A DNA stretch of 54,191 nt from Actinomycetes bacterium. Its GTDB lineage: Bacteria > Actinomycetota > Acidimicrobiia > Acidimicrobiales > SZUA-35. The stretch spans positions 1 to 54,191 of the forward strand of contig JAJRQY010000154.1 in assembly GCA_024280015.1 (NCBI GenBank), in the 5' to 3' direction. Positions 11,356 to 28,710 of the stretch are shown here, piece by piece. Position 1 is the stretch's first letter, and each line of letters opens with the position of its first letter. The translations under genes were made by a program, and so were the position numbers. The notes under the pieces were generated by a model. That model was not told the DNA's origin and searched no databases. It saw nothing but the letters and a program-made list of their open reading frames with translations.

Positions 11356-12264
11356 GTGGGGATCCTTCGCTTAAGTCATGTTGACATCACCGTCCCAGAT
11401 CTTGAGTTGGCCGCGGCCTATTACACCCAGGTCATGGGACTCGACATTTCGGACAGAACCGACGACAGGATCTTCTTCAAATGCTGGGACGAACGCGACC
11501 ACCACTGCCTTGCGGTTCGACAAGACACCCGGGTCGGACTCGACCGCTTCGCCTTCAAGGTCGATCAACCAGATGACCTTGCCAAGTTCGAAAAACGAAT
11601 AGAAGCCACCGGCCGAGATGTTCGCAGAATTTCTGCAGGGGAAGAGATTGGCCAGGGAGAATCCATCCGATTCGACCTGCCGTCGGGGCACGAAATGGAA
11701 CTGGTCTACCAGGTTGAGAAAGTCGGCGGCCGACTACCACTCCTCAATCCACCGCCCATCCCCTACGGCCTCGAAGGTATTGCTCCCCCTCGAATTGACC
11801 ATCTCCTGGTCCACGCCGAAGAGGTACCAGAAGCAGCACGCTTCTTCCAAGACATCCTCGACTTCCGACTAACGGAACAACTGCTGGATGGTGGAGGGCA
11901 TCAAACGATCGCATTCTTGGAACGATCAGCAAAGCCCCACGACATCGCCTTCGTGCAAGGACCCAACGGCGCTCTTCACCACTTCTCCTTCTGGCTGGAC
12001 GACTGGGACCATGTCCGCCGGGCTGCTGACATCCTGGCCTACAACGGTGTCACCATCGATGTTGGCCCAACACGCCACGGCCTGACCAGAGGCAACACCA
12101 TCTACTTCTTTGACCCGATGGGAACCCGCAACGAAGTGTTCTCCGGCGGCTACCGCCCCGACCCGGACTTCCCTACCATTACCTGGACCGATGACCGAGC
12201 CGGTCAAGCCGTTTTTTACTACGAGGGCGTTCTCAACCAACGCTTCGCCACCGTTCACACCTAG
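11356..12264 (+). CDS. dmpB: Catechol 2,3-dioxygenase (type I extradiol), first copy
   Basis: A 302-residue two-domain vicinal-oxygen-chelate enzyme that cleaves catechols next to the hydroxyls to give 2-hydroxymuconic semialdehydes. The Fe(II) ligands are in the C-terminal half: RIDHLLVH (His about 149), LHHFSFW (His about 208-209) and Glu about 260. The full type I extradiol signature is present at 239-260: TRH, then IYFFDPMGTRNE. The C-terminal half closely resembles XylE/DmpB. The start is a GTG at 11356. It is first in the aromatic operon, followed 11 bases later by a paralogue. Confidence 0.93.
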   Translation: MGILRLSHVDITVPDLELAAAYYTQVMGLDISDRTDDRIFFKCWDERDHHCLAVRQDTRVGLDRFAFKVDQPDDLAKFEKRIEATGRDVRRISAGEEIGQGESIRFDLPSGHEMELVYQVEKVGGRLPLLNPPPIPYGLEGIAPPRIDHLLVHAEEVPEAARFFQDILDFRLTEQLLDGGGHQTIAFLERSAKPHDIAFVQGPNGALHHFSFWLDDWDHVRRAADILAYNGVTIDVGPTRHGLTRGNTIYFFDPMGTRNEVFSGGYRPDPDFPTITWTDDRAGQAVFYYEGVLNQRFATVHT

Positions 12265-12275
12265 AGAGAATTGTC

Positions 12276-13190
12276 GTGTCTGGAATTCTTCGTCTTTCTT
12301 ACGCCGATGTGCGAGTGCCCGATCTTGAACTGGCGACCGCCTACTACGCCGAAGTGGTGGGACTTGTCGTGACCGGCGAGACATCGGAACGCTCCTACCT
12401 CAAGGCATGGGACGAACATCAGCACCATTCTCTCATCCTGTCTAAGGCGCCGACTTATGGCTTGAACTCGGTCGGTTTCAAGGTCGCTAGCGCCGCTGAC
12501 CTGGACCAACTCGCCGAACGGCTTAACGAAGCGGGAGTCGCGTTCGAACGGTTCGATGCTGGCGAACTTGCCCAGGCCTCGGGAGCAACCATCCGCTTCG
12601 TCGCCCCAAGCGGGCACACCATCGACCTTGAATTTGGAATGGGTCAAGTCGGCAACGGCTTGCCCTTGATCAACCCACCACCGGCGCCAGACAATCTCAT
12701 AGGAATACACCCCCCTCGACTCGATCACATCTTTCTGCTTTGCGAAGACGTCGATCAGATCACCACCTTCTTCCAAGACGTCTTGGAATTCCGGCTCACC
12801 GAACAGATCATGGCCGATGACGGACACCAGCTGGCCACCTTCCTAGAGCGAACCCACAGCCCCCACGACATCGCCTTCCTTACCGGTCCCGATGGAGGCT
12901 TTCACCATCTTGCCTTCTGGGTCGACGAATGGAACGACCTCCGTCATGCCGCCGACACTTGTGCCTACCACGGCGTCACAATTGACGCAGGTCCAACACG
13001 GCACGGAGCAACCCGTGGGTGCGGCCTGTACTTCTTCGATCCTGCCGGAAACAGGAACGAGATCTTCACCGGTGGTTACTGGTTCGACCCTGATGACCTT
13101 CCAACAACCTGGACTGAGGCCGAGATGGGGAGAGCAATTTTCACCTACAAAGGTCAGGTCGATCCCAAGTTCATGACGGTGCACTCATGA
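12276..13190 (+). CDS. Catechol 2,3-dioxygenase (type I extradiol), second copy
   Basis: A 304-residue paralogue of the preceding gene with the same two-domain layout. The metal ligands are in RLDHIFLL (His about 151), FHHLAFW (His about 210-211) and NRNEIF (Glu about 262), and the type I signature TRHGATRGCGLYFFDPAGNR, then NE, is intact. The N-terminal domain and substrate-pocket segments differ clearly from copy one (LSKAPTYGLNSVGFKV versus RQDTRVGLDRFAFKV). The two copies may therefore prefer different catechols, for example catechol and methylcatechol. The start is GTG behind AGAGAG. It overlaps the phosphatase gene by four bases (ATGA). Both copies look active. Confidence 0.92.
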   Translation: MSGILRLSYADVRVPDLELATAYYAEVVGLVVTGETSERSYLKAWDEHQHHSLILSKAPTYGLNSVGFKVASAADLDQLAERLNEAGVAFERFDAGELAQASGATIRFVAPSGHTIDLEFGMGQVGNGLPLINPPPAPDNLIGIHPPRLDHIFLLCEDVDQITTFFQDVLEFRLTEQIMADDGHQLATFLERTHSPHDIAFLTGPDGGFHHLAFWVDEWNDLRHAADTCAYHGVTIDAGPTRHGATRGCGLYFFDPAGNRNEIFTGGYWFDPDDLPTTWTEAEMGRAIFTYKGQVDPKFMTVHS

Positions 13191-14353
13191 CCTCAGCAAA
13201 GGACCAGAACAACTCAAATAGTGACAACGGATCAAGCGACAGCGACGCTGCGGACCGTGCGGCGACAACGGACCGGTTTAATGCCCCCATGTACCTGGCC
13301 CGCTATCGCCAGAAACAGACAGGCACGGCATCCCCCATTCTCTCTCCCACCCTCAACGGAAAGGGGGAAACCGAGAACGGAGTCGACACCGCCCTCTATC
13401 TCAAGCGATTCCGACAACGCTCCACCGGCGGTGCCACCGAAGCACCAACCACACCTCTCTGGCAACGGGCCGACCTCGGAACCCAACAAGCCCTCACCGA
13501 AGACAACCGAAACAAGGAGATCTCGCCACCATCAAATGCAGCGCGGCAGCTTCTCAACGACGTCTATCTGATTCGTCACGGCGAAACCCAGGGCTACTCC
13601 ACTGATTCGGGCCTTACCCCGCAAGGAGCATGGCAAGCCCACAGCTACGGTCGCACCCTGTCACGCAGAATCAAGAACGGCGAGACGGTCGTCTTTCGCC
13701 ATGCCGCCACCAACCGAGCAAGAGAAACCGCCGAACAAATCCATCGCGGCCTGATCGACGGACTGGTCCAGTACGAGAAGGAAATCACAATCGTTGAGCC
13801 CGAACCGGCCAATGAGTTTCGAAACTTCCAGTTCGTCGCTCCCGACGGACTGAAAGACGTGACCGCCGCATTCCGTCAATATCACGCCCTCCTCGAAGGA
13901 CACGAACGTACCGCCGCCGGCGACCGCCCCCTGTGGCTGGTCGAAATGGATCGATTCTGGAGAACCCAACAAGGAGGCGGAGACCCAATACAACACTGGC
14001 TGACCGTTCCGCTCATGCATTTCGAACCGCCCTCCATGACGGTTCGTCGGTTCTGGGCCGGCATCGTCCGACTCTCGGGAGAATTCCCGGGGGCACGTCT
14101 CGCAATTGCCACCCATTCGGGTTGCATTCGCGCCTTCGCCGTATCCGCCCTGGGTTATGACCCAGGTGAGCCCTACAACACCGAACATGTTCGGGTGAAG
14201 CTCCTCAGCGATCTCGAAGAAACGACTGGCGGACATGACGCCATGGTGACCTACCGAAATCGAGTGCAAGAGATCAAGGTTCCCGACATAGCCCAACTGC
14301 CAACCTGGTCAGTAAACGATGACTGGTCTGGCTTCGACAGTGAGGCCCAATGA
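13187..14353 (+). CDS. Histidine-phosphatase family protein with disordered N-terminal tail
   Basis: A 388-residue protein. Residues 1-120 are low in hydrophobics (Ser/Asn/Asp/Thr-rich) and look disordered. They carry two copies of a short motif: MYLARYRQKQTGTA (35-48) and LYLKRFRQRSTGGA (70-83). From about residue 124 the phosphoglycerate-mutase-like domain begins: YLIRHGETQG (phospho-accepting His), RARETAEQI (second catalytic Arg region) and IATHSGCIRAF (second catalytic His). The start overlaps the second dioxygenase stop by four bases, and the phenylphosphate-synthase-like pair follows. Context suggests it removes phosphate from an aryl phosphate, like the phosphohydrolase of the Corynebacterium cresol pathway. 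That role is inferred; the phosphatase fold is clear. Confidence 0.85.
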   Translation: MTSAKDQNNSNSDNGSSDSDAADRAATTDRFNAPMYLARYRQKQTGTASPILSPTLNGKGETENGVDTALYLKRFRQRSTGGATEAPTTPLWQRADLGTQQALTEDNRNKEISPPSNAARQLLNDVYLIRHGETQGYSTDSGLTPQGAWQAHSYGRTLSRRIKNGETVVFRHAATNRARETAEQIHRGLIDGLVQYEKEITIVEPEPANEFRNFQFVAPDGLKDVTAAFRQYHALLEGHERTAAGDRPLWLVEMDRFWRTQQGGGDPIQHWLTVPLMHFEPPSMTVRRFWAGIVRLSGEFPGARLAIATHSGCIRAFAVSALGYDPGEPYNTEHVRVKLLSDLEETTGGHDAMVTYRNRVQEIKVPDIAQLPTWSVNDDWSGFDSEAQ

Positions 14354-14519: not shown

Positions 14520-15602
14520 ATGACCGAGAACATCGTCTGGTTTGATCGCTATGACCGCGACCTCCACAAGCCTTACGTCGGAGGCAAGAACGCCAGCTTG
14601 GGCGAGATGATGATGGCCGAGCTGCCTGTCCCACCTGGATTCGCGGTAACAATCAACGCCTACGAGCAACTGTGGGAAAACAAGAGCTTAGTTGATGACA
14701 TTAATGAGCTCCTCCGCAGCATCGATCACGATGACTACGCCAAGAATCGAGCAATTTCAGCGGAGATTCGCCAGCTCATTGAGGCCGTTCCTGTTTCGGA
14801 CCAGGTAGCAGCGGACATCGCCGAGGCATATGCATCCCTTTGCCGCCACTGCGAGTCAGATGACATTCCCGTGGCTGTGCGATCTTCAGCCACCGCTGAG
14901 GACCTTCCCGACGCCTCATTCGCTGGCCAACAAGACACCTACTTGTGGATTCAAACCCCAGAATCGGTAGTCGATCATGTTCGACAATGCTGGTCCTCCA
15001 TCTTCACTGATCGGGCCATCGCTTACCGACACAGCATGGGTTACATGCATCAATCCATTGCTATGAGTGTCGGTGTGCAGAAAATGGTCGATCCAATCGC
15101 CTCTGGCGTGGCCTTTACTCTCAACCCCACCAATGGGGACCGGTCCCAGATAGCGGTCGATGCCTCGTGGGGTTTGGGTGAGGCTGTGGTTTCGGGCGAA
15201 GTCACTCCCGACAACTTCTTGATCGACAAGGTTCTGCGAGAGGTCGTCAAGCGAGAGATTTCCGACAAACACGTTGAGTACCGCCTCACCGACCGCGGGA
15301 TAGTGGAGAAGGTGCCGATCGAAGACGAACGCCGCAACCAGTCCTCGGTAACCGATGAAGATCTCATCGAGATTGCCCTTCTCGCCCGCAAGGCAGAAAA
15401 GCATTACGGCTGTCCTCAAGATGTCGAATGGGCAATCGACCGCCACCTCCCAACGGGAGCCAATGTGGTCATGCTTCAAAGTCGTCCCGAAACCGTGTGG
15501 TCACAGAAGGCCACCAAGTCCGTTTCCAAGGGCGGAGGAGATCAGATGTCGTCGATTGTTTCGACACTGCTCTCGCCAATGCACACCAAGAAAACCAACT
15601 GA
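14520..15602 (+). CDS. Phenylphosphate synthase-like ATP-grasp subunit (PpsB-like)
   Basis: 360 residues (about 40 kDa) that match only the N-terminal ATP-binding half of PEP synthase. Motifs are VGGKNASLGEM, then VAVRSSATAEDLPDASFAGQ, DASWGLGEAVVSGEVTPDNF and the closing VMLQSRPET. A stand-alone ATP-grasp half paired with a separate swivelling-His subunit is the architecture of phenylphosphate synthase (PpsB, 40 kDa, Thauera) and of cresol-phosphate synthase (Cre system). Role: transfer of the ATP beta-phosphoryl group to the partner's histidine. ATG 14520 gives the family N-terminus MTENIVWFD; an upstream ATG at 14436 has a better ribosome site (GAGGGG) and would add MCEACPIIDWANELPTVRSF and eight more residues, so the start is open. 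Confidence 0.85.
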   Translation: MTENIVWFDRYDRDLHKPYVGGKNASLGEMMMAELPVPPGFAVTINAYEQLWENKSLVDDINELLRSIDHDDYAKNRAISAEIRQLIEAVPVSDQVAADIAEAYASLCRHCESDDIPVAVRSSATAEDLPDASFAGQQDTYLWIQTPESVVDHVRQCWSSIFTDRAIAYRHSMGYMHQSIAMSVGVQKMVDPIASGVAFTLNPTNGDRSQIAVDASWGLGEAVVSGEVTPDNFLIDKVLREVVKREISDKHVEYRLTDRGIVEKVPIEDERRNQSSVTDEDLIEIALLARKAEKHYGCPQDVEWAIDRHLPTGANVVMLQSRPETVWSQKATKSVSKGGGDQMSSIVSTLLSPMHTKKTN

Positions 15603-15622
15603 TTCCAGGGGGAATTACCAAG

Positions 15623-17419
15623 ATGGCAGAGAACAGATTTCCGAGTCCTTTCGAGATCGAAGGGCCAGCTGATGTCGAAGGCTGGGAAGATCTTTATCCA
15701 TATTCGGTGAGTTTCGGTGAAGCCCGCAAGGAGTATGAGAATGATCGCTTCTGGTTCCACGACTCCATGCACTGGGGCCAGGCGCTAACCCCTTGGGATT
15801 CGACCTTCTTCGAGATGGCCATTGCGTCACTCAGCCAGATGAACAGCCGGCATTACCGCATTCCCCCAGCGGAAGGCATCGACTTTCGCGTTCTTTATGG
15901 ATACGCCTACCTGTCCCCCGTTGGAGTCGATCCAGAAAAGATCGAAGCCCGGGTCCCCCAGTTCATGGAACGGGCTGGTCACTACTTCGGCAACTGGGAC
16001 GACCTGTACACCAACTGGCTAGTGAAGGTGAAAGACACCATTGCCGAGATCGAGGCGTTGGACTTCTCTCCGCTGCCCGAGATTGAAGATCTCAGTATCG
16101 TGACCGAAGGCGTCGCGGTCGGAAGTGGCTACCAACTTCTTTCGCAGTACAACAAGTTCAAAGACCTGATCTTGAAGACTTGGAACTATCACTTTGAGTT
16201 CCTCAATCTTGGGTATGCCGCCTACTTGGACTTCTTTGGATTCTGCAAAGAAGCCTTCCCATCAATTCCCGACCTGGGCATCGCCAAAATGGTTGCCGGT
16301 GTCGAGGTCGACCTCTTCCGGCCAAACGAAGAACTCAAGGTCCTGGCACAAAAGGCTGTCGATCTTGGCATTGCCCGAGCCTTTGACGACCCGGCAAACG
16401 TTTCTCTCGATGGCGAGGCTGGCGCCCAATGGCAGGCAGCCTGGGATGAAGCAAAGGACCCGTGGTTCAACTTCACTTCCGGCAACGGCTTCTATCACTT
16501 TGACAAGATCTGGCGGGACTATCCCGAGATTCCTTATGCCTTTATCAAGGACTACATCACCAAGATCGAAGCTGGAGTCGACATCAGCCGACCAATCGAA
16601 GCCATCCGAGCCGAACGTGATCGTGTTGTGTCGGAATACCGAGAATTACTTGCCACTGACGAAGATCGTGAAGCGTTCGACGGAAAGCTCGGCCTGGCAC
16701 GAGTGGTGTTCCCCTACGTGGAGAACCACAACTTCTACATCGAGCATTGGACCATGTCGGTGGTGTGGCGAAAGATCAAGGAGTTGGGTGCGACCCTGGC
16801 CACCGACGGCCTCATGGCCAACGACGACGACATCTTGTTCCTACGTCGAGATGAAGTCAACGAGGTCCTCTGGGATTACTACTCCAACTGGGCAGTCAAC
16901 GCGCCGACCGCGGCCGCCCATCATTGGGGCCCAAAGATCATCAAGCGCCGCGAGATTCACGCCAAGCTCTTGGAGTGGGAAGCACCAAAGGCCTTGGGTG
17001 AGCCACCTGAGGTCATCACCGAACCATTCACCATCATGCTCTGGGGCATCACCAGTGACTCGGTAGAAAACTGGCTCGGAGCCGAAGACTCTGATGACGG
17101 GACGCTAACGGGAATGGCAGCCTCACCCGGCGCTGTTGAAGGAATAGCCCGGCTGGTGTTCTCTCCCGAGGATGTCGGTGACATCCAAGACGGCGAGATC
17201 TTGGTGGCTCCCATCACCGCTCCCAGCTGGGCCCCGATGTTCCCCAAGATTCAAGCCTGTGTCACCGATATCGGCGGCATGATGAGCCACGCGGCCATCG
17301 TGTGTCGTGAGTACGCCGTTCCTGCGGTTACTGGCACTGGCTTTGGGACGAAGAGAATCAAGACTGGCGACCGCCTCCGAGTCGACGGCTCGGCCGGGAC
17401 CGTCACCATTCTGGACTAG
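15623..17419 (+). CDS. Phenylphosphate synthase-like phosphohistidine subunit (PpsA-like)
   Basis: 598 residues (about 70 kDa), the size of the Thauera PpsA subunit. The first 490 residues have no motif I can name, but are rich in aromatic residues and acids and presumably form the phenol-binding part. The C-terminal 100 residues are the PEP-utilising swivelling domain, GMAASPGAVEGIARLV, then ITAPSWAPMF and GGMMSHAAIVCREYAVPAVT, with the phospho-carrying His at about 556. The PEP-binding barrel of true PEP synthase is absent, so this is not gluconeogenic PpsA. ATG 15623 follows GGGGGAA, 20 bases after the ATP-grasp gene. Together they should phosphorylate a phenolic hydroxyl; the substrate is inferred. 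Confidence 0.84.
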   Translation: MAENRFPSPFEIEGPADVEGWEDLYPYSVSFGEARKEYENDRFWFHDSMHWGQALTPWDSTFFEMAIASLSQMNSRHYRIPPAEGIDFRVLYGYAYLSPVGVDPEKIEARVPQFMERAGHYFGNWDDLYTNWLVKVKDTIAEIEALDFSPLPEIEDLSIVTEGVAVGSGYQLLSQYNKFKDLILKTWNYHFEFLNLGYAAYLDFFGFCKEAFPSIPDLGIAKMVAGVEVDLFRPNEELKVLAQKAVDLGIARAFDDPANVSLDGEAGAQWQAAWDEAKDPWFNFTSGNGFYHFDKIWRDYPEIPYAFIKDYITKIEAGVDISRPIEAIRAERDRVVSEYRELLATDEDREAFDGKLGLARVVFPYVENHNFYIEHWTMSVVWRKIKELGATLATDGLMANDDDILFLRRDEVNEVLWDYYSNWAVNAPTAAAHHWGPKIIKRREIHAKLLEWEAPKALGEPPEVITEPFTIMLWGITSDSVENWLGAEDSDDGTLTGMAASPGAVEGIARLVFSPEDVGDIQDGEILVAPITAPSWAPMFPKIQACVTDIGGMMSHAAIVCREYAVPAVTGTGFGTKRIKTGDRLRVDGSAGTVTILD

Positions 17420-17562: not shown

Positions 17563-18822
17563 ATGTTGACAAAAGAACAGAATGAAGAACTAACCCAGGT
17601 TGGCCCAGGCACGCCCATGGGGGAGGTTCTTCGCCACTATTGGTATCCGGTGGCCTTCACCCGTGAACTCGAAGAGTTCCCAGTCAAGAGCGCCCGGTTG
17701 CTGGGCGAAGACTGGGCGGTGTTTAAGACCGACTCCGGAAGCTACGGCATTGTCGATGAACGTTGCCCTCACCGTGGTGCCTCAATGGTCTATGGCATCA
17801 CCGACGAGGATGGGCTTCGTTGTGGTTACCACGGTTGGAAGTTCGACACAGAGGGAACGTGTGTCGAGATCCTGGCCGAACCCGACTCCTCCGACAAGTT
17901 CCGAGAGGGCTGCTCGATCCGCTCCGGCCAGGCCCAAGAACTTGGAGGTCTGATTTGGGCCTATGTCGGTAGTGGTCCGGCTCCAGTATTGCCTCGCTAT
18001 GAGGCCTACGTGATGGATGGGATCCGCGACATTGGGGCGACTGTCATTCCCTGCAACTGGCTCCAGATCATGGAGAACTCCGTTGATCCCTACCATGTCG
18101 AAGCTCTCCACGGGAACTACTTCGAGTTCATCGCCAAGCAGCAAGGAACGCCAATGCCCGGCTCCTTCGGTGGCAACAAGCACGAAAAGGTGTCCTTCGA
18201 ACCGTTTGACCATGGCATCATCAAGCGCAGGCTGCTGGTCGGCCAATCAGAGGAGAGCGACGACTGGAAGATCGGACACCCACTGGTGTTCCCATACAAG
18301 ATGTGGGTCGGCGGTAACGGCGTCTTCCAGATGCAGATTCGAGTTCCCGTCGATGACACGCACACCCATGTGATGTTCTACACCGTGCATGCTCCCGATG
18401 GGGCTCCTACTCCAACCGAGGAACGCTGCGTCGACTACGAAATCGAGTGGCTGGACGATGATGGCAAGTTCATTGTCGACTACATCGAAGGTCAAGACAT
18501 CATGGCCTGGGTAAGCCAGGGTGACGTTGCTGACCGAGTAAACGAGAAGATCACAAAAAGTGACCTCGGGGTCGTTGCCTGCCGCCGCATGTTCCGCGAG
18601 GCCATCGAAAGCGTCCAGGCTGGCAATGATCCGACCGCCGTGGTTCGCAAAGCGCACGACGTCATCAAGTTGCCACTGGAACGCTCCAAGTTTGGCCGAG
18701 GCTCGGCCTTTGCCACCGACTGGATTGATCATGGCTCGATGCGATACAGCCCAATCGCCGCAGAACTCAAACAGCTTCATCTCGATGCAGATGCGGCCCG
18801 CAAAGAACTCGAGGACGTCTAA
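17563..18822 (+). CDS. Rieske non-heme iron oxygenase, oxygenase component
   Basis: A 419-residue ring-hydroxylating or demethylating oxygenase alpha subunit. The Rieske [2Fe-2S] ligands are CPHRG (Cys68, His70) and CGYHGW (Cys87, His90). The mononuclear iron site starts in ENSVDPYHVEALH (bridging Asp175, His178, His183). No beta subunit, ferredoxin or reductase gene adjoins it, which fits the single-subunit (phthalate or vanillate oxygenase-like) class. Electrons may come from TmoF or a host reductase. It directly follows the phosphorylating pair and abuts the decarboxylase gene with no gap. I infer it oxygenates the phosphorylated phenol. O-demethylation of a methoxyphenol is an alternative. 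Confidence 0.9.
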   Translation: MLTKEQNEELTQVGPGTPMGEVLRHYWYPVAFTRELEEFPVKSARLLGEDWAVFKTDSGSYGIVDERCPHRGASMVYGITDEDGLRCGYHGWKFDTEGTCVEILAEPDSSDKFREGCSIRSGQAQELGGLIWAYVGSGPAPVLPRYEAYVMDGIRDIGATVIPCNWLQIMENSVDPYHVEALHGNYFEFIAKQQGTPMPGSFGGNKHEKVSFEPFDHGIIKRRLLVGQSEESDDWKIGHPLVFPYKMWVGGNGVFQMQIRVPVDDTHTHVMFYTVHAPDGAPTPTEERCVDYEIEWLDDDGKFIVDYIEGQDIMAWVSQGDVADRVNEKITKSDLGVVACRRMFREAIESVQAGNDPTAVVRKAHDVIKLPLERSKFGRGSAFATDWIDHGSMRYSPIAAELKQLHLDADAARKELEDV

Positions 18823-22617: not shown

Positions 22618-24038
22618 TTACTAACTGGATCAACGGAAAACCCAAGGAGGCCGCCTCTGGTGAGGTGTTCGACACCATTAACCCTTGGTCTCAAACCAGC
22701 CACGACACCGTGGCGCTATCCGGGCAAGAAGACATCGATGCGGCCCTTGATGCGGCCCGCGATGCTTTTGACTCCGGTCCATGGCCGCAGATGGGTTTCG
22801 GTGAACGAGGAGCCCTCCTGCATCGGCTCGCTGATCTCATCATGGAGAATGCCGACGAGCTTGCCGCTGCTGACTCCAAGGACATGGGCAAGCCACTCAG
22901 CGCAATGCTGGCCAAGGACGTTCCTCGGACGGCCCAGAACTTCCGATTCTTTGCCGACCATGCTCGACTCAGCGCCTCGGAGATGTACCCAACAGATAGT
23001 GGCCATCACGCCTTCAGTCGCTTCGAGCCAGCGGGTGTGGTCGCTGCCGTCGCCCCCTGGAACTTTCCACTCATGTTGGAGTCTTGGAAGATCGCTCCTG
23101 CCCTGGCCTGGGGCAACACAGTCGTATTGAAACCAGCCGAGGATACGCCCGGGTCCGCCACCATCATGGCTCGCCTGGCCACCGAGGCCGGATTTCCTGA
23201 CGGGGTGCTCAACGTTGTCCACGGGTTCGGGCCCGATAGTGCCGGCGAGATGCTGACCACGTCGGACAAGGTCGACCGCATCACCTTCACCGGAGAGTCC
23301 TCAACGGGCCGTGCTATTGCTGGAGCCGGAGCAGCCAATCTGGTTCCTGTCAGCCTCGAGTTGGGCGGCAAGGGGGCAAATATCGTTTTTGGCGACGCCG
23401 ACCTGGAGGAAGCAATCAAATGGTCCAACACCGCAATCTTCACCAACGCTGGTCAGGTTTGCCTCGCTGGTAGCAGGCTCTATGTCCAGCGTGAAATCTA
23501 TGACCGCTTCGTGGAGGGCTTTGTGGCCTCGGCCAAGAAGCTGGTGGTTGGGGCGCCAAACAGTCCAGACACGAATATCGGCCCACTCGCCAGTGAAACC
23601 CACTTCAAGAAGGTTTCCGGATTCTTTGACGACTTACCCGCTGAGGCCACCGTGCATTGTGGCGGTCCGGCCAAGGACGGTTCGTGGGGTGTGCATCCAA
23701 CCATCATCACCGACGCGCCACCCGATGCCCGAATCTGTCGAGAAGAGGTGTTCGGCCCCGTCGTGACCATCCAGCCGTTTGACACTGAAGATGAGGCGGT
23801 AGCGGCGGCCAATAGCTCGAAGTATGGCCTCAACGCCATGCTCTTTACCGAGAATCTTCGCAAGGCTCATCGTGTTGCCAACCGGCTACGAGCCGGCACC
23901 GTTTGGGTGAATTGCTTCTTTGTCCGCGACCTACGCGCTCCCTTCGGCGGAGTTGGTTGGTCTGGCATCGGACGAGAAGGCGGCACCTTTAGCCGGGAGT
24001 TTTTCACCGAACCCAAAGCTGTCGTTATCCAGCCATAG
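22614..24038 (+). CDS. dmpC: 2-hydroxymuconic semialdehyde dehydrogenase
   Basis: A 474-residue NAD-dependent aldehyde dehydrogenase. It feeds the oxidative branch of the meta pathway by oxidising 2-hydroxymuconic semialdehyde to 2-hydroxymuconate. NAD-binding and catalytic motifs are [35 protein letters not shown] (general-base Glu) and [13 protein letters not shown] (nucleophile Cys). It starts within the aldolase stop codon (ATGA at 22614). No hydrolytic-branch hydrolase (DmpD) was seen, so the operon is committed to the dehydrogenase, tautomerase and decarboxylase branch. The substrate is inferred from context. Confidence 0.9.
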
Positions 24039-24105
24039 CACCACATCAACACATCTGAACCATCAGACAACTGAACCACCAACAACTGAACAAGGGGACC
24101 ATTTC

Positions 24106-25605
24106 ATGGGAATTCTCGACCGATCCGAGTACTACGACCTGACGCGTACCACCAACTGGTCGCCGTCCTATGTGACAGAGGACGAGCTCTATCCAGAATC
24201 GATGTCGGGTTCCCGCGGCATCCCAATGGAGAAATGGGAAGCCTTCGATGAGCCATACAAGGTGGCTTACGGCGAATATGTCATGACCCAGCGCGAGAAG
24301 GACTCTGGGGCATACTCGGTCAAGGCCGCTCTGGAACGTTCCAACTTTGTTGAGAACGCCGACCCTGGTTGGGTGAGCACGCTCAAGGCACACTACGGAG
24401 CAATCGCAGTCCCCGAGTATGCAGCTATGACCGGCGAAGCTCGAATGGCCCGATTCTCCAAGGCACCAGGCAACCGCAATATGGCGGTTTATGGGATGAT
24501 GGACGAGACCCGCCACGGCCAGATACAGCTCTACTTTCCTCATGAGCACACCGACAAGAGTCGACAGTGGGACTGGGCTCACAAGGCCATGCACACCAAT
24601 GAATGGGGTGCGCTAGCGGCCCGCCACTTCTTTGATGACATGATGATGACTCGAGACGCCATCTCCGTCTCCATCATGCTGACGTTCGCCTTCGAAACCG
24701 GCTTTACCAACATGCAGTTTTTGGGTTTGGCTGCCGATGCGGCGGAAGCTGGCGATCACACCTTCGCCAATCTGATCTCCAGCATCCAAACCGATGAGGC
24801 ACGTCACGCTCAGCAGGGCGGACCCAACCTCAAGATCTTGCTGGAGAACGGAATGAAGGAGGACGCTCAACGCATGATTGATGTGTCGTTCTGGAGGTCA
24901 TGGAAACTGTTCTCGGTATTGACCGGACCAATGATGGACTATTACACACCGCTTGAACACCGAGCCCAGTCCTTCAAGGAATTCATGCAGGAGTGGATCA
25001 TCGGACAATTCGAGCGTCAGATTCACGATATTGGTCTGGACACCCCCTGGTATTGGGATGAGTTCGTACGCGCCCTCGACGAGACCCACCATGGCATGCA
25101 CCTTGGGGTTTGGTACTGGCGCCCAACCGTTTGGTGGAACCCAGCAGCTGGCGTGTCTCCCGACGAGCGGGACTGGCTGGAGGAGAAGTATCCCGGGTGG
25201 AATGACAGCTGGGGATCTTGCTGGGATGTCATTATCGACAACCTGGTTGATGGCAAGCCGGAACTGACTGGGCCGGCCACCCTCCCCATGATCTGCAATA
25301 TGAGCAATATCCCCATTGTTGGAACACCGGGACCCGGCTGGAACGTCAAGGACTACCCGCTGGAACACAACGGCCGTCTCTACCACTTCGGATCTGGACC
25401 AGACCGTTGGTGCTTTGAGCAGGAGCCAGAGCGCTACCAGGGACACCTGAGCTTTATTGATCGGTTCCTCGCTGGACAGATCCAGCCCATGGATCTGAAT
25501 GGCGGCTTGGCCTACATGGGGTTGTCACCCGGCGAGATGGGCGACGACGCGCATGACTACGCCTGGGTCGCTCACTATCAGACCGAACAGCGCGCTGCCA
25601 GCTGA
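24106..25605 (+). CDS. tmoA: Toluene-4-monooxygenase-type hydroxylase, alpha subunit
   Basis: A 499-residue diiron hydroxylase large subunit that inserts one oxygen atom into arenes or alkenes. It is strikingly like Pseudomonas T4MO TmoA, collinear in numbering with all six iron ligands: Glu104, Glu134, His137, Glu197, Glu231, His234. Thr201, Ile100, Phe176, Phe196 and Phe205 of the active-site pocket are also kept. Position 103, a known regiospecificity site that is Gly in T4MO, is Pro here (AVPEYAAM). The start at 24106 (AAGGGG upstream) reproduces the family N-terminus; an earlier frame start is spurious. A 67-base leader separates it from dmpC, and the rest of tmo follows. Confidence 0.96.
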   Translation: MGILDRSEYYDLTRTTNWSPSYVTEDELYPESMSGSRGIPMEKWEAFDEPYKVAYGEYVMTQREKDSGAYSVKAALERSNFVENADPGWVSTLKAHYGAIAVPEYAAMTGEARMARFSKAPGNRNMAVYGMMDETRHGQIQLYFPHEHTDKSRQWDWAHKAMHTNEWGALAARHFFDDMMMTRDAISVSIMLTFAFETGFTNMQFLGLAADAAEAGDHTFANLISSIQTDEARHAQQGGPNLKILLENGMKEDAQRMIDVSFWRSWKLFSVLTGPMMDYYTPLEHRAQSFKEFMQEWIIGQFERQIHDIGLDTPWYWDEFVRALDETHHGMHLGVWYWRPTVWWNPAAGVSPDERDWLEEKYPGWNDSWGSCWDVIIDNLVDGKPELTGPATLPMICNMSNIPIVGTPGPGWNVKDYPLEHNGRLYHFGSGPDRWCFEQEPERYQGHLSFIDRFLAGQIQPMDLNGGLAYMGLSPGEMGDDAHDYAWVAHYQTEQRAAS

Positions 25606-25626
25606 CCGGCGCGCTGCCAGCCGACC
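25591..25626 (+). repeat. 17-base direct duplication at the tmoA stop
   Basis: CGCGCTGCCAGCTGACC (25591-25607) is repeated as CGCGCTGCCAGCCGACC (25610-25626) with a period of 19 bases. The first copy encodes the last TmoA residues and the TGA stop. The second is just downstream and lost the stop by T-to-C. This looks like a local tandem duplication, possibly recent. Confidence 0.85.
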
Positions 25627-25666
25627 AACAAACCACGTTCAAGATTCAACAAGGAGTAAGAAGACG

Positions 25667-25921
25667 ATGGCACTTTTTCCACTGAGCTCAAACTTCGAAG
25701 GCGACTTCGTTCTGCAACTCGTACCAGTAGACGACGAGATCACCATGGATGAGGTGGCGGCGGCTTGCGCCGAGCATTCGGTCAATCGAAGAGTAAGACC
25801 ACAAGCAGGCAAGGTGATGAGAGTTCGTCGCCATACAGACGGCGAGATCTTTGCCCGCGACATGTTGGTGAAGGACTCAGGTTTGATGCCAACAGAGACC
25901 ATTGACATCATTTGGGAATAG
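25667..25921 (+). CDS. tmoB: Toluene monooxygenase hydroxylase, gamma subunit
   Basis: An 84-residue small subunit of the (alpha-beta-gamma)2 hydroxylase, the same length as TmoB of T4MO and with its ubiquitin-like pattern: ALFPLSSNFEGDFVLQLVPV, then MDEVAAACAEHSVNRRV, the conserved RP, and VRRHTDGEIFARDM. The start at 25667 has AAGGAG nine bases upstream. Its place directly after tmoA follows the canonical order. Confidence 0.93.
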   Translation: MALFPLSSNFEGDFVLQLVPVDDEITMDEVAAACAEHSVNRRVRPQAGKVMRVRRHTDGEIFARDMLVKDSGLMPTETIDIIWE

Positions 25922-25935
25922 GGCGAGCTTCAACA

Positions 25936-26274
25936 ATGGCAATGGAGAAACTCTGCACGCTCGACGATGTCTGGGAGGGTGACATGGACAGCTTTGAGGC
26001 CAACGATGGCCGAGAAGTTCTCGTCGTCTGTCTTGATGGAGGGGCCGTCAAAGCCTTCCAGGGAGTCTGTCCCCATCAAGAAATATCCCTGGTCGAGGGT
26101 GAACTCAAGGGGAATGTCCTGACCTGTCGAGCTCACCTTTGGCAATTCGATTGCACTACTGCCAAAGGGATCAACCCCGACGACTGCCAAATCGCTGAGT
26201 ACCCCGTCCAGGTCACTGGTGACGACGTGTATGTGGACGTGGCCAACGTTGAACCATTTACCTCACACTCATGA
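25936..26274 (+). CDS. tmoC: Toluene monooxygenase Rieske ferredoxin
   Basis: A 112-residue Rieske [2Fe-2S] ferredoxin, exactly the T4MOC length, that carries electrons from TmoF to the diiron hydroxylase. Cluster ligands are in GVCPHQEI and TCRAHLWQFD. GINPDDC and the closing YPVQVTGDDVYVD are shared with T4MOC. The start was taken as the ATG at 25936 (MAMEKLCTLDDVW), which matches the family N-terminus; an in-frame start 24 bases earlier is less likely. Confidence 0.95.
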   Translation: MAMEKLCTLDDVWEGDMDSFEANDGREVLVVCLDGGAVKAFQGVCPHQEISLVEGELKGNVLTCRAHLWQFDCTTAKGINPDDCQIAEYPVQVTGDDVYVDVANVEPFTSHS

Positions 26275-26308
26275 ATCCCTGCCCCACCTATGTAGAGAGA
26301 AGCACAAG

Positions 26309-26626
26309 ATGACCAACAACAAGTCCGTTGCCGACGGATACAAGAACAACAGGGTCGGGCCGATTCTCCGGTCCGGCGATGTCGCCAATGCCGCGGTCGA
26401 GGCGGTTGAGATTGACAATCCGGAGAAGGAAATCGAGATCCAAGACCGGAGTGCCTACATCCGAATCCAGTGCGAAGATGAGTGCATCCTCACTCGTCAG
26501 TCGATGGAGGAGATGCTCGGACGGCCTTTCGAGATGCGCGAGTTGGAGCTCAATCTCAGCTCCTTCGCTGGACAAATCGACACGACACCTGAGCAAGTCC
26601 GGTTCTACATGAACCAGCACATCTAA
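26309..26626 (+). CDS. tmoD: Toluene monooxygenase effector protein
   Basis: A 105-residue cofactor-free coupling protein (T4MOD is 103 residues) that docks on the hydroxylase and tunes the diiron site. Shared patterns are NRVGPILRSGDVANAAVEA, then IEIQDRSAYIRI, MEEMLGRPFEM and LELNLSSFAGQI. The ATG at 26309 follows AGAGAGAAG. The gap to the beta-subunit gene holds a hairpin. Confidence 0.94.
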   Translation: MTNNKSVADGYKNNRVGPILRSGDVANAAVEAVEIDNPEKEIEIQDRSAYIRIQCEDECILTRQSMEEMLGRPFEMRELELNLSSFAGQIDTTPEQVRFYMNQHI

Positions 26627-26635
26627 CTAGCCCAA

Positions 26636-26658
26636 CGCTGCTCGCCCGGCGGGCAGCG
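26636..26658 (+). terminator. Intercistronic hairpin between tmoD and tmoE
   Basis: CGCTGCTCGC, loop CCG, GCGGGCAGCG forms a 10-pair stem with one T-G wobble, nine bases after the tmoD stop. No T-run follows. A processing or stoichiometry-setting hairpin is more likely than a true terminator, because tmoE and tmoF must be co-expressed with tmoA-D. Confidence 0.55.
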
Positions 26659-26696
26659 AACAAGACACCGACCCCCCCTCGAGAAGGAAAACGTCC

Positions 26697-27686
26697 ATGA
26701 CTAGCGTCGAACCACTCAAACCACTACGAACCTGGAGTCACCTCGCCGACAAGCGGCGGCGCCCTACCGAGTACGAGATCGTCTCCACTAATCTCCACTA
26801 CCGCCAGAACAATCCAGACTCCCCGTGGGAGCTCGACCCCGACATCCACATGAACAAGTGGTACCGCCAGTATTGCAACGACAGCCCACTGCAGCACGAC
26901 GATTGGGATGCCTTCCGAGACCCGGACCAGCTGGTCTACCGGACCTACAACATTCTCCAGGATGGCCAAGAAACTCATGTCCGCAGCATCTTGGATCAGT
27001 TCAGTGACCGCGAACAGGACTCCGTTTTCTCACAAGAGTGGGTTGAAACGTTGGCTTCGCACTACGCGCCCGCCCGCTACGTTTTCCACACAGTGCAGAT
27101 GGTCTCGGCCTATCTTTCACAAATGGCCCCGGCCAGTACCATTTCAAACTGCACAACGTTTCAGGCTGCTGATTCGGTGCGCTGGTTAACCCATGCTGCC
27201 TACCGGACAGCTGAGCTAGCAAAGTCCCATGACTCGGTTGGTTTCGGAGAAAATGAGCGCCAGCGGTGGGAGAACGACGCCTGTTGGCAGGGCTTCCGAG
27301 AGCTGATGGAGAAGGGTCTCGTCGCTTGGGATTGGGCGGAGTCCTTCACCTTCCTCAACCTGGTAGCCAAGCCTGCCATCGAGGCCACCGTCCTAGGTGG
27401 CTTGTCAACCGTGGCTCAGCAGGAGGGAGATGTGCTGATGACCTTGATGTGTGAGACCCAGCTTCGTGATGCCGAACGGCACCGACGTTGGAGTAGCGCT
27501 CTGGTCGAGATGGCTCTCACCCAAGATGGGAACCTGGCCGTCTTCAACGACTGGCTCGACAAATGGCTCCCGTTGGCCGATGCCGCCATTGATGCGTATT
27601 GTCACGACCTCCCCGAAGGTTCAGATCTTGCACAGTCGGCGAAGAAGAAGGTCAAGGACTTTCACCGCCAACTTGGTCTCGGTTGA
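26697..27686 (+). CDS. tmoE: Toluene monooxygenase hydroxylase, beta subunit
   Basis: A 329-residue beta subunit of the diiron hydroxylase, built like the alpha subunit but lacking the metal ligands. Family features are LKPLRTWSHLADKRRRPTEY at the N-terminus, a helical region with SHYAPARYVFHTVQM, then ADSVRWLTHAAYRTAELAKS and the C-terminal LPLADAAIDAYC. The length agrees with TmoE. AAGGAAAACGTCC provides the ribosome site. The reductase gene begins one base after its stop. Confidence 0.94.
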   Translation: MTSVEPLKPLRTWSHLADKRRRPTEYEIVSTNLHYRQNNPDSPWELDPDIHMNKWYRQYCNDSPLQHDDWDAFRDPDQLVYRTYNILQDGQETHVRSILDQFSDREQDSVFSQEWVETLASHYAPARYVFHTVQMVSAYLSQMAPASTISNCTTFQAADSVRWLTHAAYRTAELAKSHDSVGFGENERQRWENDACWQGFRELMEKGLVAWDWAESFTFLNLVAKPAIEATVLGGLSTVAQQEGDVLMTLMCETQLRDAERHRRWSSALVEMALTQDGNLAVFNDWLDKWLPLADAAIDAYCHDLPEGSDLAQSAKKKVKDFHRQLGLG

Positions 27687-27687
27687 G

Positions 27688-28710
27688 GTGTCCACAGTCC
27701 ACCTGACATCATCAGACGGCACGTTCAACTTCACCCAATCTGACGATGACTACAGCATTCTTCAGGCAGCGCTGCGGAACCAGCTGCCCTTTCCCTATGA
27801 ATGCAATGCTGGCGGCTGCGGCTCATGTCGCTTCATTCCGATGTCTGGCGAGTATGAGACACTCATGGATAGTCCCCCCGGCTTGTCCAAGCGTGACATA
27901 CGGAAAGGGATGCAGTTGGCGTGCCAGACGCGCGCTACAAGCAATATGGAACTCAAAGTCCGTGCTGATGAGGAATGCAGGCCCTCGATCGTGCCTCGAT
28001 TGAGGACAGCAACCCTCGAGTCTTGCCAGACAATCACTCATGACATCGTTGCCATCGGTCTGCGGACAGCTACCGCTGCTCAGTTTCTACCGGGGCAATA
28101 TGCCATCCTCACCAATGGAGAGGGAGTTCGTCGCTGCTACTCAATGAGCAATACCCCGAATGAGGACGGTGCTTGGGAGTTTCAGATCAAGCGAGTGCCA
28201 GGCGGCGCGTTCAGTGACGGAATACTCGATCCGATAGTCGGCGATTCTTACACAATCGATGGGCCATACGGGATGGCCTTTCTGCGGACCGACTCGAATC
28301 GAGACATCTTGTGTGTTGCTGGAGGGTCAGGCCTCTCACCCATGGTTTCGATCATTCGCGGAGTGGCCGCGGAGATGCGCGACTCATCGCCACAGGTACA
28401 TCTCTTCTACGGCGGAAGAACCCCTCGAGATGTTGCCGGAAACAAGCTCACCGAACTCCTAGGGCTTGACTCACTTGACCGCCTGTGTGTGACCTCGGTG
28501 ATATCTGAACCCGAGGATGCGACAAGCCTTGGTTGGGATGGCGAGATCGGCTTCGTTCACGAGTCAGTTGAGAGGAATTTCAGCGTGTCGGTGACTGATA
28601 TGGAGATCTATTTCGCCGGCCCTCCGGCGATGACCGAGGCCCTGCAACGATTGCTCATGATCGATCTTCAGGTTCCCTTCGACCAGATTCACTTCGACCG
28701 GTTCTTCTAG
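27688..28710 (+). CDS. tmoF: Toluene monooxygenase NADH oxidoreductase
   Basis: A 340-residue reductase with an N-terminal plant-type [2Fe-2S] domain and a ferredoxin-NADP-reductase-like FAD/NAD domain. Cluster ligands are in YECNAGGCGSCRF and LACQT. The FAD motif is RRCYSMSN. NAD-binding segments are CVAGGSGLSPMVSIIRG and YFAGPPAM. TmoF of T4MO is 326 residues. The start at GTG 27688 gives MSTVHLTSSDG and sits one base after the tmoE stop; no better start was seen. It is the only flavin reductase in the aromatic operon, so it may also serve the orphan Rieske oxygenase. Confidence 0.92.
   Translation: MSTVHLTSSDGTFNFTQSDDDYSILQAALRNQLPFPYECNAGGCGSCRFIPMSGEYETLMDSPPGLSKRDIRKGMQLACQTRATSNMELKVRADEECRPSIVPRLRTATLESCQTITHDIVAIGLRTATAAQFLPGQYAILTNGEGVRRCYSMSNTPNEDGAWEFQIKRVPGGAFSDGILDPIVGDSYTIDGPYGMAFLRTDSNRDILCVAGGSGLSPMVSIIRGVAAEMRDSSPQVHLFYGGRTPRDVAGNKLTELLGLDSLDRLCVTSVISEPEDATSLGWDGEIGFVHESVERNFSVSVTDMEIYFAGPPAMTEALQRLLMIDLQVPFDQIHFDRFF

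Follow-up and report, generated by a model that had tools for sequence, protein, structure and literature searches.

The locus studied here raises the question why a phosphatase gene within an apparent aromatic degradation operon encodes a long N-terminal tail in which two similar short motifs stand out. It is located on a contig of 54,191 nucleotides (JAJRQY010000154.1, in the following "the window") from an actinomycete of the order Acidimicrobiales. A first-pass annotation had proposed that the two motifs form a docking or cargo-targeting element, which could tether the phosphatase to the synthase or the Rieske enzyme of the operon or direct it into a protein shell.

The phosphatase gene (13187..14353, forward strand) encodes a protein of 388 amino acids with a His_Phos_1 domain (PF00300, E 1.2e-12), which scored 48.3 bits in a Pfam profile search against a curated cut-off of 21.7 bits. 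Residues 1 to about 118 form the tail and are predicted to be disordered. R130, H131, R177 and H310, which comprise the catalytic histidine of the RHG motif, the second histidine and the arginines of the phosphate pocket, are invariant in an alignment of 43 sequences, and together with the PF00300 score they assign the predicted protein to branch 1 of the histidine phosphatase superfamily. The fold matches retrieved by Foldseek from the PDB are histidine phosphatases and phosphoglycerate mutases (TIGAR, PhoE, CobC and RosC), and a plasmid search found no homologues. Aryl phosphates are proposed as the substrate from the genomic context alone.

The start codon of the phosphatase gene overlaps the stop codon of the preceding gene in an ATGA at 13187-13190. 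This gene encodes Edo2 (12276..13190; TIGR03211, 340.1 bits), a paralogue of Edo1 (11356..12264; TIGR03211, 368.7 bits at a cut-off of 320.2), which is an extradiol dioxygenase of the catechol 2,3-dioxygenase type; these two are the docking partners that we propose below. Downstream of the phosphatase gene, and like the dioxygenase genes on the forward strand, follow the HpeI/PpsB-like ATP-grasp subunit of an aryl kinase (14520..15602; PPDK_N, 1.4e-113; the reading frame opens at 14319, with a probable start at 14520), its HpeH/PpsA-like phosphohistidine-swivel subunit (15623..17419; PEP-utilizers mobile domain, 2.8e-23; NF006150) and a LigXa/VanA-like Rieske oxygenase (17563..18822; PF00355, 1.4e-18, and PF19301, 1.2e-15). 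Genes for hydratase/decarboxylase-type enzymes, an acetaldehyde dehydrogenase and a 4-hydroxy-2-oxovalerate aldolase are found further downstream. The gene set would fit a series of kinase, oxygenase, phosphatase, ring cleavage and meta pathway, and from it we infer both substrate and reaction order: the two-component kinase would phosphorylate a phenolic compound, the Rieske oxygenase would oxidise the aryl phosphate, the phosphatase would strip off the phosphate to yield a catechol, and the extradiol dioxygenases would cut the catechol ring. Our literature search retrieved nothing specific on this operon type. Downstream of the meta-cleavage genes, the window also encodes two subunits of the Phenol_Hydrox type (soluble diiron monooxygenase) together with a reductase of the flavin/ferredoxin type (23920-28710), which perhaps supply the phenolic substrate.

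The proposed route is comparable to the hydroxyphenylethanone pathway with HpeHI and HpeD, where, according to PMC9618137 and PMC12167813, a kinase likewise acts first and the aryl phosphate is transformed before it is dephosphorylated. The closest characterised homologue of HpeD is NagD and not a histidine phosphatase, the middle step is a carboxylation instead of an oxygenation, and no docking tail is described for HpeD in the sections consulted. The phenylphosphate synthase PpsAB and the 4-methylbenzyl phosphate synthase CreHI, both cited in PMC12167813, are also two-component aryl kinases and share their domains with the proteins encoded at 14520-17419, but they belong to other pathways and have the kinase part alone in common with this operon.

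Within the 120-residue tail, the two 14-residue motifs lie 35 residues apart exactly as first described, MYLARYRQKQTGTA at residues 35-48 (13289-13330) and LYLKRFRQRSTGGA at residues 70-83 (13394-13435). They represent the top-scoring pair of 14-mers of the tail, with a BLOSUM62 score of 45 and 8 of 14 positions identical; none of 1000 shuffles reached this score, the highest being 37. Of the pattern originally derived from the two copies, (Y/F)L(A/K)R(Y/F)RQ(K/R)xTGxA, the core proved to be real, whereas the TGxA half is unconserved and missing even in the nearest relative; the resemblance of the two motifs in this half is evidently a matter of chance. Based on the conservation among orthologues, which centres on residues 30-43 and 69-78, motif 1 is defined as R-x3-P-[LM]-Y-L-A-[RK]-Y-x-E-R-Q (13274..13318, residues 30-44) with the core R-x3-P-[LM]-Y-L-A-[RK]-Y, and motif 2 as P-L-Y-L-[RKQ]-[RQ]-F-R-x-R (13391..13420, residues 69-78) with the core P-L-Y-L-[RKQ]-[RQ]-F-R. 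A proline precedes LYL in both motifs of the orthologues; the window carries an alanine at Pro69 of motif 2, the sole such case among 63. The motifs are separated by a variable linker (13325..13384, residues 47-66), which is acidic in many orthologues, and a second linker (13421..13453, residues 79-89) leads to a third block, PLWQRADLGTQQALTEDNRNKEISPPS (13454..13534, residues 90-116), that adjoins the catalytic domain. The suggestion that only the two motifs might be conserved in the tail was thus borne out in part: the motifs are kept and the linkers are free to vary, but the third block (PLWQRA..QQALTEDNRNKEISPP) is also conserved among orthologues.

To obtain these orthologues, genome contigs were scanned once, which yielded 49 relatives, nearly all from MAGs of Acidimicrobiia and Nitriliruptoria. 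The set was enlarged by searches of the order, the phylum, the class and one further family, and removal of duplicates left 64 distinct orthologues. All 63 orthologues with a complete tail carry motif 1, and 63 of the 64 carry motif 2. Gaps occur in L038, which lies at a contig start, and in L092/L093; motif-bearing orthologues reach down to ∼50% identity. R30, P34 and Y36 of motif 1 are each found in 63/63 sequences and A38 in 61/63, with Ser in the other two. In motif 2, Y71 and F75 are each present in 62/63 and R76 in 63/63. Position 73, which matches the Ala/Ser position 38 of motif 1, is occupied by Arg, Lys or Gln (Leu only in the decayed copy of L093), and the position matching F75, position 40 of motif 1, is mostly Tyr. 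The motifs do not interchange, which suggests two different binding sites and not two copies of one tag. The Pro-to-Pro spacing between the motifs ranges from 24 to 57 residues across the orthologues, and the KEI region conserved in the third block lies 34 to 43 residues (mostly 39) from motif 2.

We then compared pN/pS along the protein. It is 0.31 in motif 1 and 0.26 in motif 2, rises to 0.93 and 0.99 in the two linkers, and is 0.40 in the third block and 0.34 in the catalytic domain. These values were counted over all pairs at similar pS (0.58-0.63) and, with non-independent pairs and pS near saturation, are to be read as contrasts and not as precise rates; the contrast between motifs and linkers is large. 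In the most distant orthologues with both motifs (L066-L069, 49-53% identity), the third block has diverged and both motifs are kept. The first-pass annotation had named absence of the motifs from orthologues, or conservation no better than that of the rest of the tail, as grounds for giving up its proposal, and the motifs clearly withstood this comparison. They form conserved islands inside a neutrally evolving tail of variable length, which is the hallmark of short linear motifs, and they appear to be genuine and strongly selected ones. The genome holds a single copy of the strict pattern; no other operon protein shares the motif, either in the first 56 loci or on either strand of the window, and a search of known structures found none that carries it (best E 0.79, i.e., chance). 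Two side observations concern the collected loci. One phosphatase match (L116, G806:C90:5458-6459) has a single in-frame TGA, indicating a pseudogene or a sequencing error. The operon is also present on contigs labelled Acidobacteria/Acidobacteriota (L024, L036), whose Edo sequences cluster in the tree with those of actinobacteria, due to either misbinning or horizontal transfer.

The AF2 model of the window protein, based on 43 sequences, consists of a core predicted with confidence (pLDDT >80 for most of residues 124-370, the core mostly >85) and a tail in which blocks up to residue 90 have a pLDDT of 39-68. Both motifs are modelled as short helices (residues 35-44 and 70-80) with low confidence (block means 56-68). 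The third block forms helices at 91-94 and 97-109, with a block mean of 83 for residues 91-100. Motifs that become structured only when bound to a partner should give such low-confidence helices outside a confident core, and judged from pLDDT without coordinates, motifs 1 and 2 do not appear to be confidently packed on their own domain. In a read-through chain of Edo1, Edo2 and the phosphatase from locus L042 (36 rows), the motifs had a pLDDT of about 33-64 and no docking was seen; the quality of this model is low overall (pTM 0.42, with Edo1 covered by five rows), and it neither supports nor excludes docking.

Conservation of the motifs, their helix prediction with low confidence and the neutrally evolving linkers all support the proposed docking function, and we consider it probable that the motifs serve protein docking in general. 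As our main reading, to which we assign a probability of roughly one half, we propose that the tail is a bivalent docking arm tethering the phosphatase to enzymes of its own pathway, most likely Edo1 and Edo2. Two related, non-interchangeable short linear motifs would connect the aryl-phosphate phosphatase to these enzymes via neutral, variable linkers, probably folding into short helices upon binding, and such tethering would pass the catechol along and keep unoxidised aryl phosphate from being hydrolysed to no purpose. The specific assignment of Edo1/Edo2 as partners is tentative and derives from the genomic neighborhood.

An Edo gene is located upstream of the phosphatase gene in 56/56 loci with enough flank. 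The downstream genes were found in 47/51 (ATP-grasp subunit), 38/40 (swivel subunit) and 33/35 (Rieske) eligible loci. Both Edo searches gave a match in 43/43 loci with longer flanks; since one gene of L093 accounts for both matches there, two paralogues are present in 42/43 at most. This constant neighborhood partly reflects a single conserved operon. An unrelated 829-aa reading frame on the opposite strand lies between Edo2 and the phosphatase in L014 (5352-7841), the sole such interruption noticed.

Several loci differ in gene content. In a variant operon from an Ilumatobacteraceae MAG (L031:8010-10327; genome G570, L031/L094), the Rieske gene directly follows the phosphatase gene, and the genome contains only distant kinase paralogues of about 32% identity and no kinase orthologue; motif 1 deviates slightly (EEPSYVARYRQRE), whereas motif 2 is intact. 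Genome G1067 (L042) has unrelated reading frames after the kinase genes, no Rieske match and two intact motifs. In L012 (G1066), the Edo1-Edo2-phosphatase triad is followed by unrelated genes, and Rieske fragments of 72-82% are found elsewhere. L093 (G584) has a single Edo, which falls on the Edo1 side of the tree, although a long branch makes this placement unsure, and no Rieske orthologue was found. Its motif 1 is intact while motif 2 and the third block have decayed, i.e., the only single-dioxygenase locus is the one that keeps motif 1 only. This is one genome of about 41-44% identity in which the third block has diverged too, so the loss of motif 2 may be general divergence, and the loss of Rieske and the absence of Edo2 are confounded. 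Between the phosphatase and kinase genes, this locus encodes a Fer2_3 ferredoxin and a Haem_oxygenas_2 protein (L093:10262-12079), so the pathway may here have exchanged one type of oxygenase for another. His_Phos_1 relatives that lack the tail (L085/L086, about 30% identity) are found within about 6 kb of kinase-like genes and have no Edo match; the different arrangement around one of them (L085:10040-10762) possibly represents another aryl-phosphate pathway. Taken together, the constancy of Edo, the persistence of the motifs in the absence of kinase (G570) or Rieske (G1067), the G584 locus and the tail-less relatives favor the dioxygenases over kinase or Rieske oxygenase, a comparison drawn from few and partly incomplete genomes, where a gene absent from a MAG may be missing sequence.

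The same loci bear on a doubtful alternative, in which the docking partner of the motifs is the two-component aryl kinase, the Rieske oxygenase or both, so that only the oxidised aryl phosphate is hydrolysed. Both gene types come after the phosphatase gene in most loci, and ATP would be lost to an unattached phosphatase. HpeD of the Hpe pathway instead strongly prefers the transformed product (PMC9618137), and the related kinase HpeHI shows no stable complex, its interaction being thought of as transient and electrostatic (PMC12167813). The decay of motif 2 in L093, which has the ferredoxin and haem-oxygenase-like protein but no Rieske orthologue, would also agree with docking to the Rieske enzyme. 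But G570 keeps both motifs without a kinase orthologue and G1067 does so without a Rieske match; as general partners, the synthase and the Rieske enzyme originally suggested are therefore not supported, with the reservation that these MAGs may be incomplete. A division of labor suggested by L031 and L093, with motif 1 for the kinase and motif 2 for the Rieske enzyme, was rejected on two grounds: loci that do have kinase genes (L058, L063) likewise show variation at position 35 of motif 1, and G1067 has an intact motif 2 but no Rieske match.

We regard it as unlikely that the motifs act on the phosphatase itself, either by binding a groove on a neighboring subunit in a domain-swapped self-assembly or by regulating the active site. 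Their conservation whichever neighbor genes are lost would fit such a role, as would the third block, where PLW-x-R beside the catalytic domain resembles the start of the motifs and is modelled as a helix with higher confidence. However, the AF2 monomer (43 sequences) gives motifs 1 and 2 no confident placement, and their differing signatures are unlike simple repeats of one self-binding element. Attachment of the basic, aromatic motifs to membrane or nucleic acid is very improbable: their net charges of +3 and +4 combined with Tyr, Leu and Phe would suit it, but the hydrophobic moments are low (0.14-0.26), and binding by charge in general would not require signatures as exact and distinct as these. 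Cargo is known to be recruited into shells by short tags located in disordered tails, but we give targeting to an encapsulin or microcompartment next to no credence, as a search of the genome for the two families Linocin_M18 (PF04454) and BMC (PF00936) found neither, control genomes gave matches, and the strict motif is single in the genome.

For the bivalent docking arm, the best parallel may be the carbonic anhydrase CsoSCA of the α-carboxysome (PMC10614612), whose disordered N-terminal tail likewise holds a short linear motif that tethers this metabolic enzyme to a pathway partner, as we propose for the phosphatase. In CsoSCA, no motif is conserved between species, the partner is Rubisco and the enzyme resides in a shell (PMC10614612), whereas the phosphatase has two strictly conserved motifs and no shell gene was found in its genome by the search above. 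By analogy, the phosphatase would work like the Rubisco-binding tail of CsoSCA and, on the tests run, appears to be a member of no carboxysome or encapsulin system. The Rubisco-binding repeats of CsoS2 and EPYC1, described in PMC10614612, are likewise repeated short motifs in disordered proteins, but these proteins are scaffolds, while the phosphatase motifs belong to an enzyme and carry two distinct signatures. As a speculative and rather improbable extension, kinase, Rieske oxygenase, histidine phosphatase and paired extradiol dioxygenases might constitute a new aerobic aryl-phosphate route organized as a metabolon, whose phosphatase tail reads two partners with one motif version per dioxygenase paralogue.

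Dephosphorylating an aryl phosphate too early wastes ATP, so a route of this kind needs a phosphatase that is either choosy or tethered, and the strictly conserved two-motif tail suggests tethering. The motif definition makes operons of this type recognisable in uncultured Acidimicrobiia and Nitriliruptoria, and the tail provides a simple handle for asking whether bacterial aromatic catabolism has docking-motif metabolons beyond carboxysomes and pyrenoids.
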